Part shown: one piece after another, positions 15,846 to 47,490 of the stretch
Layout: each line of letters starts with the position of its first letter
Numbering within the stretch: the first letter of the stretch is position 1
Assembly: GCA_015060925.1 (NCBI GenBank)
Contig: SUXM01000013.1
Location: 1-64,000, forward strand
Origin: Parabacteroides distasonis
GTDB lineage: Bacteria > Bacteroidota > Bacteroidia > Bacteroidales > Tannerellaceae
Direction: 5' to 3'
Length of the DNA stretch: 64,000 nucleotides
Notes under the pieces: generated by a model
What the model was told of the DNA's origin: nothing
Database searches by the model: none
The model's input: the letters and a program-made list of their open reading frames with translations, nothing else
Position numbers and translations under genes: made by a program

Positions 15846-17336
15846 TTATTTCCAAGATTTTAATATGCCTCGTTTGCTGACACTTAAGCTGAAACCAACA
15901 TTGTCTCCATATAAAGAACCTGCATCAGCCGCTATAGCTCCCGAAAATTCCCAACCAGATAGGTGAGGATGGTGGTATTTGATTTCAACTAATCCCGAAC
16001 ACCCACGTTTATTGTCGGTAAAAGGAGCATAAGTCGTACCCCAGCTATTCATCAAAGTGTATTTGAGTCGGTAGGATACAGTGGCTGACAAGTCACCTTC
16101 AAAAGCCAAGTGCCATGCACGTACACGAGTGTTCTTGAATGCTAAATCTCCATTGGTATTATAGGCGGGAGAGGTGATGAGTGGATTCCCTATGGTATGA
16201 CCGAAATAGGAGACACCTGTCCGATATTCACCGTTGTTATAATAATTATCACCACCACCACCAGTTGCATGATACTTGTCATGGTCAAAGTTGATAAAGT
16301 GGAACGAACCGCTTTGGTCTCGTGTAGTCAAATATTCGGTAACCACTTTGCGTATCCATGGGAATTTTGGCAAATCCACTTGTACTCCCCATAAACCATC
16401 TGTTCCATTTCTGAAGATCATCCCCGACTTATCTTCAAAGTAATGTTGATGGTAAGCCGATACACTCCATGTAGGTAGGCTATATGACAATTTGAAATCA
16501 TACGAACCGTAATGGTTTCCTAATACATTGATCTGGTCGGAGAGTGTGGCATCCCCGCTACCCTCTTTCCCACAAACTACACGGATGAAATCTTTGAATG
16601 AATGCGGTTGTTCACCTATTTTGGTATTACTGGAAGTCCCACCCCATTGTGCCCAATGTTGTACACCGATAATTCCGGATAGCGGGAAATCGTTTCTTGT
16701 GTCTTTGATTTGGATATAGAAAGATTTGTGATGCCAAAGCACATCTTCTATATAGGTCTGATTTGCATTCGCAAAATGGCTTAAGTAACCGGAATCAAAT
16801 GATTTCCCAACGGCAAAATCCCCTTTGACCTGCATCCAACCTTTTGTTAAAGGAACGATAGAGAATGTGGGCATGCTCAGATTTATTTCAGGAATCGGGC
16901 GTGCATTGGTGGATTGAACCATATCTCCCGAACTCAAAGCATGATCCCAAAGCGAATGGCGATTCTCTTTACTGCCGACTGTCAACAATAAACTTCTGTA
17001 TCCTAATTCGGCATAAACTTGATGGATGAAAACATTATGATGGCGGGGTGCTGCTGCTACAACATTTAATCCGGCACCCCATCTGAAACCTTTTCCAAAA
17101 GTTTGTTGATGAGCCACTCCTAGGTTTAAATATCCATTGTTTGCATCTAAAGGAACTAATCCATAACGATTGCTGACCATCCAGAAAGGCGTATTGGAAC
17201 CGGTACCGGCAGAACCGAATATTTCTGCCTTATATGAAGTTGTATTTTCAAACTCATCTGTCTGTGCTATACTTTGGGTACTATTCAGTAATACTGTTAT
17301 AAAGGAAATAACGTATAAAATTCTTGAAACTTTCAT
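15846..17336 (-). CDS. Wzi-like capsule assembly outer-membrane protein
   Basis: 496 residues with a signal peptide (MKVSRILYVISFITVLLNST...SIAQ, cleavage near 25). The rest is rich in alternating beta strands with aromatic girdles, as expected of an outer-membrane barrel. The N-terminal part (SAGTGSNTPFWMVSNRYGLV) and the central VGSKENRHSLWDHALSSGDM match the Bacteroidetes Wzi family. Wzi proteins act as lectins holding capsule at the cell surface; here no capsule genes are adjacent, so the glycan is unknown. A -7 box TACATTTG sits at the complement of 17359-17366. Confidence 0.8.
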   Translation of the reverse strand: MKVSRILYVISFITVLLNSTQSIAQTDEFENTTSYKAEIFGSAGTGSNTPFWMVSNRYGLVPLDANNGYLNLGVAHQQTFGKGFRWGAGLNVVAAAPRHHNVFIHQVYAELGYRSLLLTVGSKENRHSLWDHALSSGDMVQSTNARPIPEINLSMPTFSIVPLTKGWMQVKGDFAVGKSFDSGYLSHFANANQTYIEDVLWHHKSFYIQIKDTRNDFPLSGIIGVQHWAQWGGTSSNTKIGEQPHSFKDFIRVVCGKEGSGDATLSDQINVLGNHYGSYDFKLSYSLPTWSVSAYHQHYFEDKSGMIFRNGTDGLWGVQVDLPKFPWIRKVVTEYLTTRDQSGSFHFINFDHDKYHATGGGGDNYYNNGEYRTGVSYFGHTIGNPLITSPAYNTNGDLAFKNTRVRAWHLAFEGDLSATVSYRLKYTLMNSWGTTYAPFTDNKRGCSGLVEIKYHHPHLSGWEFSGAIAADAGSLYGDNVGFSLSVSKRGILKSWK

Positions 17337-41149: not shown

Positions 41150-41210
41150 TAATAAAAACAAAGAAGCCGGATGCCTCTGACTAATGTGAATCAGAAACAT
41201 CCGGTTCTTA
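41150..41210 (-). terminator. Terminator of the GH2-ROK-GmhA operon
   Basis: On the minus strand, AAGAACCGGATG and CATCCGGCTTCTT pair around a 24-base loop that contains an inner TCTGA/TCAGA hairpin, followed by TTGTTTTTATT. It lies 18 bases after the stop of the MFS gene and before the mtaB promoter. Confidence 0.85.
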
Positions 41211-41226: not shown

Positions 41227-42402
41227 TTATTCAGCTTTTAATTTGAAACAAAGGAAGAATAGGTAAATCATTCCTGTTGCCAAAACAAGCAATGCGCCTG
41301 TTTGTGATTGAAGGGCGTCTGATGCAACTCCCATAACCAAAGGGAATATCGTTCCGCCAAACAATCCCATTACCATCAAACCTGATATTTCATTCTGGCG
41401 TGAAGGCATGGAAAGTAACGCTTGGGAAAATAACATGGAGAATACGTTGGAATTCCCATATCCAGCTAACGCAATACAAATGTAAAGCATCATTTTCGTA
41501 TCAAACAGTATAAATCCGGATACAGCCAGGAGCATCATGATTACACTTGTAAAGAAGAACTTTTGGGTTGTCCATTTAGCCAGAATCATAGAACCAGTAA
41601 AACATCCGACTGTACGGGCAATAAAGTAAAGGCTGATAGCAAATCCTGCTTGTGTCAGATCCATCCCTAAACGTTCCATTAGAATTTTAGGCATGGTGAT
41701 ATTGAAGCCGACGTCAATACCCACATGACAAACAATACCTAAGAACATCAGCAGGACAAAAGGATTACCTAACAGTCCAAAACATTCACCAAAGGTGGAG
41801 GGTTTAGCCTCTGTTTTTTCCTCTTCGATAGGCGTCATACCTAATAAAAGGATAGCGATGACAGCTATAATCATATAGATAGGGTAGAGGACACGCCAAC
41901 CTAAACCAAAGGCTGGGATGGTTTGAGTAGCACCCCACATGGCTATGTAAGGAGCGAGGAAAGAGGCGATTGCTTTAACAAATTGGCCGAAAGTTAAGCT
42001 GCTGGCCAATTTGTTTCCCCCGATGATGTTTGAAAGAAGCGGATTCAAAGAGGTTTGCATGAATGTATTTCCTATCCCTAATAAGGTGAAGGATAGTAAC
42101 ATGGGAACATAACTAATCCCGAAACATGGAATCAGTAAGGCAATAATTGTTATTATCAAACTCAATAAGACGGTTTTCTTTCTGCCTATCTTATTCATCA
42201 GCATGCCGGTAGGCACAGAGAAGATCAAGAACCAAAAGAAGACCATGGAAGGAAATATATTTGCTTCCGAGTCACTTAACCCTAAGTCTAACTTGATGTA
42301 GTTAGAGGCAATGCCGACCAAATCCACAAAACCCATTGTGAAAAAGACCAACATGATAGGGAAAAGTTTTACATATATATTATTTGTTTTTGCCATTGTC
42401 AA
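41227..42402 (-). CDS. FHS-type major facilitator sugar transporter
   Basis: 391 residues with 12 predicted membrane helices. MFS features are GMLMNKIGRKKTVLL between helices 2 and 3, and NTFMQTSLNPLLSNIIGG, like the FucP/NagP/GluP (FHS) proton-sugar symporters common in Bacteroidetes. It is last of the lacI-ROK-gmhA-GH2 operon, 13 bases after the GH2 gene, so it likely imports the monosaccharide freed by GH2. The sugar is not identified. Confidence 0.87.
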   Translation of the reverse strand: MTMAKTNNIYVKLFPIMLVFFTMGFVDLVGIASNYIKLDLGLSDSEANIFPSMVFFWFLIFSVPTGMLMNKIGRKKTVLLSLIITIIALLIPCFGISYVPMLLSFTLLGIGNTFMQTSLNPLLSNIIGGNKLASSLTFGQFVKAIASFLAPYIAMWGATQTIPAFGLGWRVLYPIYMIIAVIAILLLGMTPIEEEKTEAKPSTFGECFGLLGNPFVLLMFLGIVCHVGIDVGFNITMPKILMERLGMDLTQAGFAISLYFIARTVGCFTGSMILAKWTTQKFFFTSVIMMLLAVSGFILFDTKMMLYICIALAGYGNSNVFSMLFSQALLSMPSRQNEISGLMVMGLFGGTIFPLVMGVASDALQSQTGALLVLATGMIYLFFLCFKLKAE

Positions 42403-42415
42403 GTAACCCCATGAA

Positions 42416-44830
42416 TTATAACGATTGATAAATACCGGTCTTATTTAAAAGCTTTTTGTATTCACTGAAATCAAATGGTGGTTGTCCATACAAATAGTGG
42501 TTAAGTTCTGACTTACCATCTACTTCATATTTGATTAACAACATTCCTTGACCTTGGATTTCCGGAATTTGGCTGATGATTGTCTTTCCGTTTACATCAA
42601 TGAAGAAATCACCTTGATAGTAAACCTTTCCTGATTTTACATCAGTTACGGTAACTTTACCATTTTTGGGTTCTCTGGTATCATTTACAGCTACTAATGG
42701 ATAGAAGCCATCGACTGCATCGTTGATAAATACACAAGCATTGTGTTGTACGTTCTTGATGAAATGATAAGCCAATTTCTTAGAACCATAATAGTCAACA
42801 ACTGCATCGGAGATAATTGGCCAACCATCTTTTACGTTCCACCAGATAATACCGGCTTTGTCGAACTTGCCACCTCTCCAACGTTCTACGAAATACTTCA
42901 TAGCCTCTGCTTGAACAATCTGTGATGCTGTGACGAAGTCTTCCAATTTTTTAGATACAGTACCGAATAATAAACGAATCTGATTTGTCATCAAATCGTT
43001 GCGTTCTGTACGCCAGTTTGTCCAATATTCTGTTGGGAAAGCACGAACCGATTTGGTCATCCATTCATCGTTCCATTTGAAACCTTCAGTCCAAGGATAA
43101 ACACAATCTTTTGTGAACATTTTCTGTAATGATTCCAGGTTTGGGCAACCATGGTAACCGATTTCACTTACGAAACGAGCTTTTTCAGCAGTATAGAAAG
43201 GAGCTTTGTAGTAACCACGTGGTCCCCATAAGTGACGTTCTGGTAGATCGTCTTGTTGGCTACCCAACTCATACGCTTTCGGGCTGAAGTATGGAGAACT
43301 TGGTAAGTATGGACGAGACGGGTCAAATTCAAACAATACCTGCGGGATAGTATGACGGCTGATACGGTCTCTGTTCGGATTTTGACGGAAAGCAGCCAAG
43401 TGCCATACAAAGTTCATATCATTTTCATTATTACCAGACCATAACACCAAAGATGGGTGGCTACGTAGTTTAAGCACAACCGATCTGACCTCTTCTTCAA
43501 CTTTTCTTGCAAATTCATCGTTCTGCGGATAGAAAGAACAAGCCATGGCAAAGTCTTGCCATATCATAATTCCATACTGGTCACATAAATCAAAGAACTC
43601 ATGATCTTCATATACGTTACCACCCCAGCAACGAATCATATTACAGTTCAAATCTTTGACCATATCAACAGTGCTCTTTACGAAAGAGGCATCTTGACTA
43701 TGTAATACACTTAAAGGAACCCAGTTGGTACCACGGACAAATATCTTTTCTCCATTGACGATGAAACAGAAGCGACCATCTTTTTCTGTATTGTCTTCTG
43801 AACGATCTAAGATGATGGTACGGATACCGATCTTACGTTTATCAACAGCAAATACCTCTCCCTTGCTGTTCTGCAAAGAAACTTCAGCATCATAAAGAGC
43901 AGCTTCTCCATAACCATTCGGCCACCAGAAATCTACATTGTCTAAGTAGAAATAAACACGTTGGTTCATGTTGGTCATCGCTATTTCGTAGTTGTAAGCG
44001 GTTTTACCATTACGACTGACATTGATGACAGCTTTCAAATCTTCGTATGCTTCAAACGGAGCTCTAATTTGGATATCAACAGCACCATGAGAACGTTTTC
44101 TCTTTAGATCGACACTGTCTGTAATCCAGAAGACATCAGTGAAACGGATTGGATTGTAGATTTGTAGTTCGACATCTCTCCAAAGGCCGGCACTAACCAA
44201 ACGTGGCATAATGTCCCAACCAAAAGAAGAAGCAGCTTTACGAACATTTACCGTTTCGCCAAAGCCATCACGCATACTGAATGAACCCATGATGTATTTC
44301 TGTCCTTCTAAGACTGAAGAACGGATGATGACTTGGAGTTGGTTTTGCGAACCATCTTTCTTTAACAGTTTGGTGACATCGAAGGTGTGTTCGATCATTT
44401 GGTTGGCTGTAGAGCCTAAATGTTTACCATTCAACCAAACGTCAGACAAGCAGTCAATACCTCCAAAGAAAAGCATGATCTTTTCGCCGGCTTTGGTTTC
44501 TGGAGTTGCGAACTCGCGGCTGTAGCACCATTGGTAGTTTTCGATCTTTCTCAATTTGTTTACATTACTACCAATCATCGGGTCGTCAATCTTTCCGGCA
44601 GCCAACAGGTCAATTTCAACATTGCCAGGAACAGTCGCCTTGATTTCTTGTGGTTGCATCTTGGCAATTTCTGCCGGATCAGTTATTGCTTCGTCCATAT
44701 CGGGCTGTGGCCAATAGCGCAGGTTCCACTGTCCATTTAATGTAACCGTACGGATTGGTGATGCCTGTAGGGATAATCCTGTAAATAACATCAACAACAA
44801 TGCGTACAAAACTTTAAAACGTGTACTCAT
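42416..44830 (-). CDS. Secreted GH2 beta-glycosidase, beta-mannosidase-like
   Basis: 804 residues with a signal peptide (LLLMLFTGLSLQA, cleavage near 23). A jelly-roll domain (WNLRYWPQPDM..., FFGGIDCLSDVWLNG), an immunoglobulin-like domain and a TIM barrel follow (RGTNWVPLS, MIRCWGGNVYEDHEF). GH2 acid/base is Glu469 in WSGNNEN and the nucleophile is Glu556 in FVSEIGYHG. The sequence belongs with beta-mannosidases and exo-beta-glucosaminidases. In the operon it should free the sugar at or outside the periplasm for the transporter. The specificity is open. Confidence 0.88.
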   Translation of the reverse strand: MSTRFKVLYALLLMLFTGLSLQASPIRTVTLNGQWNLRYWPQPDMDEAITDPAEIAKMQPQEIKATVPGNVEIDLLAAGKIDDPMIGSNVNKLRKIENYQWCYSREFATPETKAGEKIMLFFGGIDCLSDVWLNGKHLGSTANQMIEHTFDVTKLLKKDGSQNQLQVIIRSSVLEGQKYIMGSFSMRDGFGETVNVRKAASSFGWDIMPRLVSAGLWRDVELQIYNPIRFTDVFWITDSVDLKRKRSHGAVDIQIRAPFEAYEDLKAVINVSRNGKTAYNYEIAMTNMNQRVYFYLDNVDFWWPNGYGEAALYDAEVSLQNSKGEVFAVDKRKIGIRTIILDRSEDNTEKDGRFCFIVNGEKIFVRGTNWVPLSVLHSQDASFVKSTVDMVKDLNCNMIRCWGGNVYEDHEFFDLCDQYGIMIWQDFAMACSFYPQNDEFARKVEEEVRSVVLKLRSHPSLVLWSGNNENDMNFVWHLAAFRQNPNRDRISRHTIPQVLFEFDPSRPYLPSSPYFSPKAYELGSQQDDLPERHLWGPRGYYKAPFYTAEKARFVSEIGYHGCPNLESLQKMFTKDCVYPWTEGFKWNDEWMTKSVRAFPTEYWTNWRTERNDLMTNQIRLLFGTVSKKLEDFVTASQIVQAEAMKYFVERWRGGKFDKAGIIWWNVKDGWPIISDAVVDYYGSKKLAYHFIKNVQHNACVFINDAVDGFYPLVAVNDTREPKNGKVTVTDVKSGKVYYQGDFFIDVNGKTIISQIPEIQGQGMLLIKYEVDGKSELNHYLYGQPPFDFSEYKKLLNKTGIYQSL

Positions 44831-44858
44831 AATGTAGTTAAATTAAAAATGTTTGTAA

Positions 44859-45449
44859 TCAATATAGTATTCCCTTTTTATCCAGTAAGTTTTCCACAGC
44901 TTCAATTAGGATGTGGATTACTTTTATATGTATCTCCTGTACTCTGTCGGAGTATTTGCCACCTTGTGCACAAACATAGACATCTGATAAATCGATAGCC
45001 TGCTGTGCCATCTTTCCTGTCAAACAGATGACGGACATCCCTTTTTTCTTGGCCTCTTCCATGGCTTTAAGTACATTGACAGAGGTCCCACTGGTGGTAA
45101 TAGCCAATAGTACATCTCCCTCTTTTCCTACAGATTCCACATAGCGGGAGAAGATATATTCAAAGCCGAAATCGTTAGCTACGCAGGTGATGTAAGCTGG
45201 GTCATTGATGGAAATAGCCGGGAAAGGCAGACGGTTATGTCTGTAACGTCCGGTTAGCTCTTCTGCAAAATGGGTGGCATCACATAAAGAACCTCCATTT
45301 CCGCAGGAGATTACTTTATTCCCTTTTTCTAATGCATCAGCGATAAGTGTAGCAGCTTTCTCTATGATTGAGACTGATTCGGGATTGTTCAGGAAGCGAT
45401 TCAGAACTTCCGAACACTCATTTAAACTGTTCTGTATTAAGTTTTTCAT
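44859..45449 (-). CDS. gmhA: Sedoheptulose-7-phosphate isomerase
   Basis: 196 residues. One SIS domain; the sequence aligns throughout with E. coli GmhA (CGNGGSLCDATHFAEELTGR near 49-68 and QEIHIKVIHILI near the end). Metal and catalytic residues are preserved: His60, Glu64, Gln171 and His179. GmhA interconverts sedoheptulose 7-phosphate and D-glycero-D-manno-heptose 7-phosphate. In LPS synthesis it works with HldE and GmhB, neither of which is present here. It lies between a sugar kinase (4 bases upstream) and a glycosidase, which points to a catabolic or dual role. Confidence 0.9.
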   Translation of the reverse strand: MKNLIQNSLNECSEVLNRFLNNPESVSIIEKAATLIADALEKGNKVISCGNGGSLCDATHFAEELTGRYRHNRLPFPAISINDPAYITCVANDFGFEYIFSRYVESVGKEGDVLLAITTSGTSVNVLKAMEEAKKKGMSVICLTGKMAQQAIDLSDVYVCAQGGKYSDRVQEIHIKVIHILIEAVENLLDKKGILY

Positions 45450-45453
45450 ATTT

Positions 45454-46416
45454 TTATTTTATGGTTGCAACTGATAAGGCGGCATAATCCCCAATGTTCT
45501 CTTCCAATACGGCCGGTTTGATTTGGCAAACGGCGTAGGCTTGCGGTAATGCCTCTTTTTCTAAAACTTCTCTTACATATTTTTCCATTAATTGATTGGC
45601 ACGGGTGTAGATACTACCAATGACGATCATGTCCGGGTTCAACAGGTCGATCACGATGGCAAGCCCTTTTCCTAAATAGGTGGCAGATATACGATAAATC
45701 TTTTGAGCCAACTCGTCGCCTTGGAATGCGGCCTCAGCAACCTGTTGGGCTGTGATCTCATTAATCTGTTCACGGCTGCACCAATTTACAGTCTCACCTA
45801 ACTGGAATTTTTCCATCACCATCAACCGAGCGAGCTGTGAAATACCCCCTCCGCTACAGAAACCTTCAAAGGATCCGGATTTACCATAGCCAACAGGTCC
45901 ATAATCTCCTAAACGGATATGTCCTAATTCGCCGGCATTGCTGTTGGTACCGGCATATAATTGGCCATTTAAAATCAAGCCGGCTCCTAAGCCTGTCCCG
46001 AAAGTAAGGAATACCATGTTTTGAGTTCCACGACCTGCTCCCATCCGCCATTCTGCCAAAGCACAAGCGTTCGCATCATTTTGTAGATAAACCGGGACAT
46101 GATAATAGTTTTCAAAGAAATCAACGATGGCAATCTCATCCCATCCTGGCAGGTTAGGAGGAGAGAGGATGACCCCTTTATGACTGTCTAACGGACCTCC
46201 ACAGCTGATACCCATAGAGGATATGTCTGATGCTTTCAAATGATGAGTTTCCAATATTCGGTCAATAAGTTCTCTTAATTGTAACAGGGTTTCCTGTGGT
46301 TTGCCTGTCTTTATCTTTTCTTTTGCCACTAACCGGATATTCTCTCCGTCATAAAGTCCGTAACTGATGGCACATTTGGTGCCTCCAACGTCAATGCCTA
46401 TAATGTGTTTTTCCAT
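45454..46416 (-). CDS. ROK-family sugar kinase
   Basis: 320 residues. ATP motif DVGGTK (9-14), catalytic Asp114 in QNDANA, and GELGHIRL (162-169). The zinc motif CxCGxxGCxE is changed: the Cys positions are Val175, Tyr177 and Ser182 while Glu184 remains. Hence zinc is probably not bound. ROK kinases phosphorylate the terminal hydroxyl of hexoses or N-acetylhexosamines; here a heptose is possible. It is translationally close to gmhA (4 bases), which fits a kinase-isomerase pair. Confidence 0.88.
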   Translation of the reverse strand: MEKHIIGIDVGGTKCAISYGLYDGENIRLVAKEKIKTGKPQETLLQLRELIDRILETHHLKASDISSMGISCGGPLDSHKGVILSPPNLPGWDEIAIVDFFENYYHVPVYLQNDANACALAEWRMGAGRGTQNMVFLTFGTGLGAGLILNGQLYAGTNSNAGELGHIRLGDYGPVGYGKSGSFEGFCSGGGISQLARLMVMEKFQLGETVNWCSREQINEITAQQVAEAAFQGDELAQKIYRISATYLGKGLAIVIDLLNPDMIVIGSIYTRANQLMEKYVREVLEKEALPQAYAVCQIKPAVLEENIGDYAALSVATIK

Positions 46417-46440
46417 GTGAATAATTTTTTATAATTGTTA

Positions 46441-47460
46441 TTATCTATCTCTAAAAGTGATGGAACAGGAAAGTTGTCGGGACTGTATTTTGGGGTAATC
46501 CCTTTTTGTCTGTCTCTGTTCGATTTGTTGAGTCAACATATTGACTATCTCTCGGCTCATATCTTCTATCGGCATACGTGCCGTATGGATTTGAGGAGCC
46601 AATACTCTAAATGTCGGAATATCATGAATACAGGCTAAACCAAATTCCTGATTGAAAAGGATTCCTTTTTCATGGAAGTATTGAAAAGCTTCCAATGCTA
46701 AAATATGTGTAGTGAAAAAGAAACCATTGACATCTGATATCTCATGGAAGATACGATCTAAAACCTCTACAATGTTATTTCGATAGTTTTTAAAACTAAC
46801 CTCTCCATATAGTCTTGGGTCAATAGGCAATCTGTTTTCTATGAATGCCCGTGTGTAACCATCATGTCGCATACTCATTGTTTTCAAATAGGAGTTGGTG
46901 GTGATGACTGCTATCCGCTGATGCCCTTGTTGGATTAGATGATTGACTAATTGATAGCTACTTTCTTCATTATCTATAATTACGTAAGGAATTTTTAATT
47001 CCGGGTAGTAACGGTCAAAAGTAACAAAGGGATACCCCTCTTCTAACAATTGGATGATTTTCGTAGGAGAGTGTTTGGTTGGAGCAATGATGATACCATC
47101 GACCTGCCTTGCCCGAAAAATCTCTATCATGCGTTCCTCGCGCTCTTTCTCAGAACCGGAGCTGGTAATCATTAAGGAATATCCCTGTTTTTCCACCTCT
47201 ATCTCAATCTCTTTTGCCATTTGGGAATAGAAACTGTCACTAATGTCCGGAAGAATTAATCCAATCGTGCCAGATTGCCCTGTATTCAAGCTTCTTGCCA
47301 ATAAATTGGGTTGATAGTTCATCTCTTTGGCGCACATGAGAATCTTTTCTTGGGTGGAAAGGCTAATCCCTTTTTCTTCTCCTTTACCGGAGAGAACCCA
47401 TGACACGGTAGTTTTAGATACGTGCAATTTTTGTGCGATGTCTTTTAGTGATGTTCTCAT
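46441..47460 (-). CDS. LacI-family transcriptional repressor
   Basis: 339 residues from the ATG at 47460; the frame extends upstream through the operator and is not used. The helix-turn-helix (MRTSLKDIAQKLHVSKTTVS) and hinge are followed by a periplasmic-binding-type sensor domain (about 60-335). A 20-base palindrome at 47471-47490 sits directly before the start codon and suggests autoregulation of this operon. First gene of the operon; the next gene begins 24 bases after its stop. Confidence 0.92.
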   Translation of the reverse strand: MRTSLKDIAQKLHVSKTTVSWVLSGKGEEKGISLSTQEKILMCAKEMNYQPNLLARSLNTGQSGTIGLILPDISDSFYSQMAKEIEIEVEKQGYSLMITSSGSEKEREERMIEIFRARQVDGIIIAPTKHSPTKIIQLLEEGYPFVTFDRYYPELKIPYVIIDNEESSYQLVNHLIQQGHQRIAVITTNSYLKTMSMRHDGYTRAFIENRLPIDPRLYGEVSFKNYRNNIVEVLDRIFHEISDVNGFFFTTHILALEAFQYFHEKGILFNQEFGLACIHDIPTFRVLAPQIHTARMPIEDMSREIVNMLTQQIEQRQTKRDYPKIQSRQLSCSITFRDR

Positions 47461-47470
47461 GTTATCAGAT

Positions 47471-47490
47471 TTACTTAATCGGTTAAGTAA
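47471..47490. promoter_or_regulatory. Palindromic LacI-type operator
   Basis: TTACTTAA and TTAAGTAA are perfect eight-base arms around TCGG. The core resembles the AACCGGTT-like half sites of LacI-family operators. It lies 10 bases before the repressor start codon, and a weak TTTATTTG-like -7 box is upstream on the minus strand, so binding would block the operon promoter or leader. Confidence 0.75.

Follow-up and report, generated by a model that had tools for sequence, protein, structure and literature searches.

The window discussed here, that is, the whole stretch of 64,000 nucleotides at positions 1 to 64,000 of contig SUXM01000013.1 (assembly GCA_015060925.1) of Parabacteroides distasonis, carries on its minus strand between 41227 and 47460 five genes in one direction, which encode in order a LacI-type repressor, a ROK-family kinase, the isomerase GmhA, a GH2 glycosidase and a major facilitator superfamily (MFS) transporter and are separated by gaps of 24, 4, 28 and 13 bases. 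A single-strand operon of five closely spaced genes had been proposed by an earlier sequence-only reading of this DNA, and it is borne out. By content, strand and gaps these genes make up a sugar-catabolic operon, with repressor, transporter, glycosidase, kinase and isomerase in one unit. Heptoses are treated as bacterial envelope building blocks and immune signals, not as food, and this report discusses the operon as a candidate route for the salvage of a manno-heptose. The window genome (G000; compared loci and genomes are cited by L and G numbers) comprises 2.54 Mb and is 88% complete. The features of the locus are as follows.

47473..47488, no strand assigned: probable LacI operator, a near-perfect 16-bp palindrome, ACTTAACCGATTAAGT (minus strand), 12 bases 5' of the lacI ATG
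46441..47460, minus strand: lacI-type repressor, 340 aa from ATG 47460, with Pfam LacI and Peripla_BP_1/3 domains
45454..46416, minus strand: ROK-family sugar kinase, Pfam ROK 182 bits, zinc-binding Cys motif (GPVGYGKSGSFEG) absent
44859..45449, minus strand: gmhA, E. coli-type sedoheptulose-7-phosphate isomerase, identified by SIS_2, NF001628 above cut-off, PDB matches and tree
42416..44830, minus strand: GH2 beta-mannosidase-like glycosidase, with GH2 domains, a hydrophobic N-terminus and the catalytic pair E469 and E556
41227..42402, minus strand: MFS transporter, Pfam MFS_1 96.6 bits, first codon TTG, likely start ATG 42396
41167..41204, minus strand: intrinsic terminator-like hairpin of 16 pairs, 3' of the MFS gene, the last of the operon

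Terminator-like sites number 8 in the window against 4.9 expected, and the hairpin behind the operon has the longest stem among them. No SusC/SusD gene lies directly beside the operon.

The GmhA of the window passes the cut-off of the NCBIfam equivalog for D-sedoheptulose 7-phosphate isomerase, NF001628 (268.3 bits, cut-off 265), falls just under that of TIGR00441 (207.1 bits, cut-off 209.45), and among PDB entries best matches 1x94 and 2i22, each of which bears the name phosphoheptose isomerase. The E. coli catalytic and metal residues His60, Glu64, Gln171 and His179, to which the sequence-only reading had drawn attention, are confirmed and are invariant in 110 of 110 GmhA rows, a tally that includes repeat copies. 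In addition, N51, S54, R68, D93, T119, S120, S123 and D168, which we take to be residues of heptose binding, agree with those of 48 gammaproteobacterial GmhAs. Like the GmhA/LpcA enzymes of the ADP-heptose pathway in Gammaproteobacteria, to which it is 53-59% identical (57% to an Escherichia), the window protein has the catalytic residues and reaches the NF001628 cut-off; unlike them, it belongs to a separate clade, its gene shares an operon with a ROK kinase, a glycosidase and a transporter, and its genome is without a detected strong HldE, short GmhB or GT9. Its identity to the GmhAs of HldE-bearing Bacteroidota is 47-61%. GDP-heptose-type systems also use a GmhA-family isomerase, but theirs is 35-39% identical to the window protein and lies in another clade, and their HddA was not found in the window genome. 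Beside the GmhA of L111, the best NCBIfam models of the neighbours are HddA (398 of 600 bits), HddC (215 of 300) and a GmhB-type phosphatase; the HddA query was taken from this locus, with HddA as its best NCBIfam model, under cut-off.

This gmhA is the only copy found in the window genome, and the partners that a biosynthetic isomerase would need were not found around it. The sequence-only reading had noted that no hldE, gmhB or heptosyltransferase gene is adjacent, which holds and extends to the whole window genome at its 88% completeness: the HldE model (TIGR02198) has a best match of 89.6 bits, which is not strong, short GmhB was not found, the sole match to the GmhB model (57.7 bits) being in a 376-aa frame, and neither GT9 nor HddA was found. 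The same pattern recurs among relatives. A maximum-likelihood tree was built from 67 GmhA sequences (66 of 130 collected and the window's; 62 rows differ), leaving out repeat copies, most enterobacteria and fragments below 140 aa, with L054, L093 and L098 absent. In this tree the ROK-linked GmhAs form one clade of 22 rows with support of 96/85, 18 of them with ROK and the other 4 with no ROK in view. Next to this clade stands a weakly supported group (81/83) of E. coli-type GmhAs from other Bacteroidota and Gammaproteobacteria, while the GDP-heptose GmhAs are placed elsewhere, as are the divergent SIS proteins described below. As for the four rows without ROK in view, the genome of L066 has ROK elsewhere and that of L016 has a second, ROK-linked GmhA (L160); for L019 and L057 the ROK subfamily was not found. 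Among the 22 genomes of the ROK-linked clade, 2 (G107 Maribellus and G109 Terrimonas) have a strong HldE-domain match (267-343 bits, a threshold resting on the gap between these scores and those of about 140 bits or less), against 18 of the 18 with an E. coli-type GmhA that is neither beside ROK nor in the clade (17 in the tree and G092); this contrast gives a Fisher value of 3e-9 with relatedness ignored. One of these 18, G103, has the ROK gene elsewhere in its genome.

Matches to the GmhB model in short frames occur in 4 of 24 genomes, of which two belong to the ROK-linked clade; GT9 occurs in 7 of 24 (none in G000, G029, G031 or G041) and close HddA, the query genome set aside, in 2 of 24. 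On the full chromosome of Bacteroides xylanisolvens XB1A there are one GmhA and no strong HldE, the GmhB model is matched only in a 375-aa frame, and no HddA match exceeds 30% identity; GT9, however, has two matches. Terrimonas has two GmhAs, one of which adjoins its HddA and GmhB, and this is a natural division of labour. For comparison, BT_0474 and BT_0475 of B. thetaiotaomicron (heptose kinase and phosphoheptose isomerase) are reported as predicted lipopolysaccharide (LPS) genes (PMC8264420). Because the window genome lacks detected strong HldE, short GmhB, HddA and GT9 and has a phosphomannose isomerase match, and because strong HldE is split 2 of 22 against 18 of 18 as described, the window GmhA is very probably detached from biosynthesis and catabolic. 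An assignment to LPS heptose synthesis was rejected, given that those four partners were not found in the genome.

The partner of GmhA in this arrangement is the ROK kinase. Among 100 loci, 30 were analysed (29 non-gammaproteobacterial ones and L084), the rest being 51 from Gammaproteobacteria, L001/L082/L083, which are the window and two congeners with ROK present, and L085-L100, Bacteroidales stretches that are all short (up to about 3.6 kb). ROK directly adjoins gmhA in 17 of the 30, namely in a Parabacteroides, L084 (same family), B. xylanisolvens XB1A, Terrimonas, Maribellus, an Opitutales metagenome-assembled genome (MAG), ten further Bacteroidales-type MAGs, mostly ruminant by title, and a Porphyromonadaceae MAG; the ROK of L010 was detected by tblastn and has no entry in the frame list of that locus. 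Beside gmhA no ROK was found in any of the 51 gammaproteobacterial loci or the 16 short stretches. Marker genes are present in 29 of 32 ROK loci and 0 of 14 LPS-type loci, a contrast that is descriptive only, as the query genes were drawn from ROK loci. ROK hexokinases carry the zinc motif CxCGxxGCxE. This is absent from all 31 aligned module ROKs and replaced in each by GPxG(Y/F)xKxGSFEG, while L153, a generic ROK from the same searches, retains the cysteines. The NCBIfam ROK models matched by the window kinase, glucokinase and N-acetylmannosamine kinase among them, all score under cut-off.

The ROK subfamily is present in 14 of 393 Bacteroidales genomes. With the window's left aside, an E. 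coli-type GmhA adjoins ROK in one of the other 13 (L134), and a divergent GmhA-like SIS protein, which keeps the four catalytic residues and bears a 26-residue insertion, does so in eight; in the remaining four (L133, L138, L141, L145) no SIS gene was found beside ROK. Both the divergent proteins and the GmhA of L134 fall outside the ROK-linked clade. The divergent pairs lie near a 630-aa protein in L135, L136, L137, L139, L140, L142 and L144 and at G079:C35:32001-32930, just outside L143. Where this protein was scanned (L135 and L137), its N-terminal PfkB domain best matches HldE domain I, that of L135 has an additional HAD hydrolase domain, and a gene of the GSU2086 family often adjoins it. 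Such a kinase is near the pair within 7 of the 8 stretches, with HldE domain I as the best NCBIfam model in the two scanned, and these loci possibly represent a second sugar-phosphate pathway with heptose-like enzymes.

The GH2 enzyme had been called secreted and beta-mannosidase-like. The hydrophobic N-terminus is there, but it was read by eye and the first term is softer than it had seemed; the GH2 domains and the catalytic Glu pair stand, while the GWDWGP motif of the Dictyoglomus beta-mannosidase, presumably part of its mannose site, is replaced by GWDI(M/L)P in 8 of 8 module GH2s. The best PDB relative is CapGH2b (9nfe_A, titled a 'redox-regulated' GH2) at 49% identity by Foldseek, reached through a poor structure model (pLDDT 60.5, pTM 0.40, 8 sequences) that was used only to obtain PDB match titles. 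This likeness runs over nearly the full length and includes a GWDIMP motif and the catalytic pair, the CapGH2b mutants E465A and E553Q aligning with E469 and E556 of the window enzyme. A substrate or genomic context for CapGH2b or its PDB codes was not found in the literature searched. GH2 beta-mannosidases such as the Dictyoglomus enzyme (5n6u), BtMan2A (2je8) and others share the fold with a weaker sequence match, but they are 22-27% identical by Foldseek and differ, in the Dictyoglomus enzyme, at the motif. Six cysteines (127, 396, 401, 416, 431 and 562) are invariant in 8 of 8 module GH2s, and CapGH2b is described as redox-regulated. The gene stands alongside GmhA in 7 of the 30 loci besides the window (L002, L006, L009, L014, L015, L016, L077), and it is present in at least 2 of 393 Bacteroidales genomes, a lower bound since at most two candidates were scored per genome.

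The transporter had been named as an 'FHS' sugar transporter. Its membership of the MFS_1 family holds, but the finer assignment is weakly supported, the NCBIfam models scoring 48.9 of 202.55 bits (gluP) and 30.7 of 280.4 bits (fucP), the second figure in each case being the cut-off. Relatives of this protein occur near many ROK-GmhA pairs and, judged from its family and company, it probably carries the freed sugar. As to regulation, copies of the 16-bp palindrome with no more than one mismatch precede lacI in L109, L110, L006, L108 and L157, which makes six loci with the window, Terrimonas being among them, and another precedes GH78 in B. xylanisolvens. In 300 mononucleotide shuffles of each of the six upstream stretches none equalled the observed match, the consensus having been derived from the same sites that were scored; over the whole window, up to 3 mismatches, there is one match, no more than chance. 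From its conservation this palindrome is a probable operator for LacI. It was not found in several module loci, including L016, L009, L077, L012, L013, L011 and L054, and such loci may use other regulators.

The same five-gene order was found in the nearest named relative of the window genome, a Parabacteroides MAG from roe deer (L002/L110; L002 is apparently the congener G031), as a search of related genomes suggested by the sequence-only reading had envisaged. Identities between the two are 87% for ROK, 87% for GmhA, 93% for GH2, 84% for MFS and 73% for LacI, so the repressor is less conserved than the glycosidase. In L109 the order lacI-ROK-gmhA-GH2 matches the window as far as the contig end inside GH2. 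Within the genus, this GmhA occurs at 87% identity or above in 3 (G000, G029, G031) of 38 genomes, a count that takes in the window's, and five others have GmhA relatives at 34-39% only. The operon neighbours in L110/L002 are unlike those common to the window and L109; in L110/L002 the operon is followed on the opposite strand by a gene of the 3-keto-disaccharide hydrolase family (PF06439, L110:10107-11384), whose 53% relative in L145 (98-1357) adjoins a ROK gene and has in turn a 40% relative in L108. At some distance from the operon, the window also has a gene of the capsule assembly protein Wzi family (15846-17336, minus strand).

In more distant relatives the module is embedded in larger loci. 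The order in B. xylanisolvens is lacI, GH78, GH2, ROK, gmhA, a 533-aa protein, MFS and two GH36-like genes; beyond two further genes come two pairs of SusC and SusD, together with genes for an Exo_endo_phos protein and for an AXE1-type esterase. The order in Terrimonas is lacI, SusC, SusD, GH5, GH2, ROK, gmhA, a 501-aa protein, MFS and a GH36-like gene. The loci of both organisms resemble polysaccharide utilization loci of Bacteroidota in joining SusC/SusD pairs, glycosidases, MFS and LacI to the module; the window operon differs in having no directly adjacent SusC/SusD and in carrying ROK-GmhA, and it is a stripped form of such loci. The 500-533-aa proteins directly 3' of gmhA (L006:8602-10203, L014:8620-10125) belong to no Pfam family and cluster with their GH36-like neighbours, that of L006 has no PDB sequence match, and they are perhaps an undescribed glycosidase branch. 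Two large genes (1134 and 709 aa, L016:3-5551) precede GH2-gmhA in L016; one has no Pfam match and the other a fasciclin domain, and for these reasons a SusC/SusD identity was rejected. Near the module, manno-type enzymes are found as GH92 (L016, L136, L160) and GH38 (L133, L142, L143). Moreover, alpha-L-rhamnosidases occur inside it, as GH78 in B. xylanisolvens and as GH106 in L160, where GH106, GH92, ROK and gmhA share one strand, and rhaA, mostly with rhaB, lies near the module in 7 of 8 loci of one GmhA subclade (L004, L005, L010, L011, L020, L021 and L039, not L013). Because L-rhamnose genes are linked to the module in relatives, surface glycans of rhamnose and heptose come into view as a source. 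The S-layer glycan of Aneurinibacillus thermoaerophilus consists of L-rhamnose linked to D,D-heptose (PMC5387315), beta-D-glycero-D-manno-heptose is listed with the S-layer sugars (PMC2943079), and Campylobacter jejuni HS:5 is known to have a D-glycero-D-manno-heptose capsule (PMC10918830). The combination of a beta-acting GH2, a rhamnosidase and ROK-GmhA would fit a polymer of rhamnose and D,D-heptose.

On this basis we consider it fairly probable that the operon takes D-glycero-D-manno-heptose out of bacterial surface glycans and converts it to sedoheptulose 7-phosphate (S7P). The exported GH2 would cut a beta-manno-heptoside outside the inner membrane, the MFS protein would bring the free heptose into the cell, the ROK kinase would phosphorylate it at O7, and GmhA would turn heptose 7-phosphate into S7P, which would enter the pentose phosphate pool; LacI would act as the repressor, bound to the palindrome in front of lacI. 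To judge from the alpha-L-rhamnosidases and rhamnose genes that accompany the module in some relatives, what is degraded in nature may be a glycan built of L-rhamnose and D,D-heptose, comparable to that of the Aneurinibacillus S-layer. We infer the substrate, the product of the kinase, the direction of flux, the cargo of the transporter and the function of the operator from the genes, and the heptose in particular from the orthology of GmhA. Of the route drawn by the sequence-only reading, the catabolic role of GmhA is well supported by its being the only copy found, the undetected biosynthetic partners, the shared transcription unit and the SusC/SusD loci of relatives, while the heptose step is proposed from that orthology. 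A wider claim is put forward more tentatively and falls a little short of an even chance: that a manno-heptose catabolic pathway is widely scattered in Bacteroidota and one Opitutales MAG, with the zinc-less ROK as 7-kinase, the GmhA clade running in reverse and CapGH2b-type GH2 as a beta-heptosidase acting on rhamnose/heptose coats.

Several points weigh against heptose salvage. The families GH2, GH92 and GH38, which occur around the module, are known chiefly for mannosidases; near the active site T118 (Ser in gammaproteobacterial GmhAs), T122, A85, Y86 and S167 differ; and the window operon has no rhamnose gene, the rhaA/rhaB genes of rumen loci being on the strand opposite to the module. 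The threshold for a strong HldE is our own, the curated cut-off of 345 bits being reached by 0 of 25 and 0 of 26 Bacteroidota, and most genomes examined are incomplete MAGs. Strong HldE is also present in 2 of 8 genomes with a divergent ROK-SIS pair (G064, G338). Maribellus (G107, L012) has HldE, GmhB and GT9 with the ROK-linked GmhA as its single copy, which may serve biosynthesis or both directions, and the ROK-adjacent GmhA of L134 (L134:7839-8417) sits on a long branch outside the clade, in a genome without strong HldE, and is possibly an independent recruitment.

The main rival is an ordinary beta-mannoside operon, in which GH2 would free mannose, ROK would be a manno(gluco)kinase and GmhA would isomerize mannose 6-phosphate to fructose 6-phosphate. 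The beta-mannosidases ranked behind CapGH2b among the PDB matches, the glucokinase and N-acetylmannosamine kinase models met below cut-off by ROK, the GH92 and GH38 genes of relatives and the differing T118, T122, A85 and Y86 are in its favour, but the catalytic four and the eight further residues identical to those of gammaproteobacterial GmhAs, the position of the ROK-linked clade next to GmhAs of HldE-bearing genomes and the change of GWDWGP to GWDI(M/L)P in this GH2 subfamily speak for a heptose. Furthermore, a type I phosphomannose isomerase match occurs in 21 of 24 genomes, the window's included (missing in G029, G099 and G112; mostly 31-54 bits, cut-off 22), and since the window genome already has one, the need for GmhA in that role was rejected. 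We judge this rival unlikely, though it is the strongest of the alternatives. Rather less likely still, the ROK-SIS pair handles a different manno-like sugar, e.g., another heptose or a modified hexose: the eight loci that pair the same ROK subfamily with the divergent SIS indicate that ROK is not tied to one isomerase, but the window GmhA, at 47-61% identity to those of HldE-bearing Bacteroidota, lies outside the divergent clade, which itself keeps the four catalytic residues and is accompanied in 7 of 8 stretches by the kinase best matched to HldE domain I where scanned. That GmhA makes heptose 7-phosphate for the cell surface and stands in a sugar operon incidentally is very improbable; it is the sole GmhA found, and Maribellus offers a parallel, but the rarity of strong HldE in the clade, the low counts for short-frame GmhB, GT9 and close HddA and the complete B. 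xylanisolvens XB1A chromosome, its two GT9 matches aside, argue for the opposite. Finally, DiaA, the SIS regulator of DnaA without an isomerase role, belongs to the same fold family as GmhA, but a score of 102.8 bits, far under the DiaA model cut-off of 352, led to the rejection of this identity, and with the catalytic residues intact such a role has next to no probability.

Returning to heptose salvage, the window holds a sugar-catabolic operon in which a biosynthetic isomerase appears to work in the reverse direction, on a sugar that we do not know as a nutrient. Neither a heptose-catabolic GmhA nor a ROK heptose kinase was found by searches directed at such a pathway in the open-licence PMC literature, a body that lacks most subscription papers. 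If the proposal is true, it would extend by one sugar what Bacteroidota of the gut are known to eat, would explain orphan gmhA genes that would otherwise be annotated as LPS biosynthesis, and would provide a specificity for the GH2 subfamily of CapGH2b; moreover, it would mean that gut microbes can graze on one another's heptose-bearing surface glycans.

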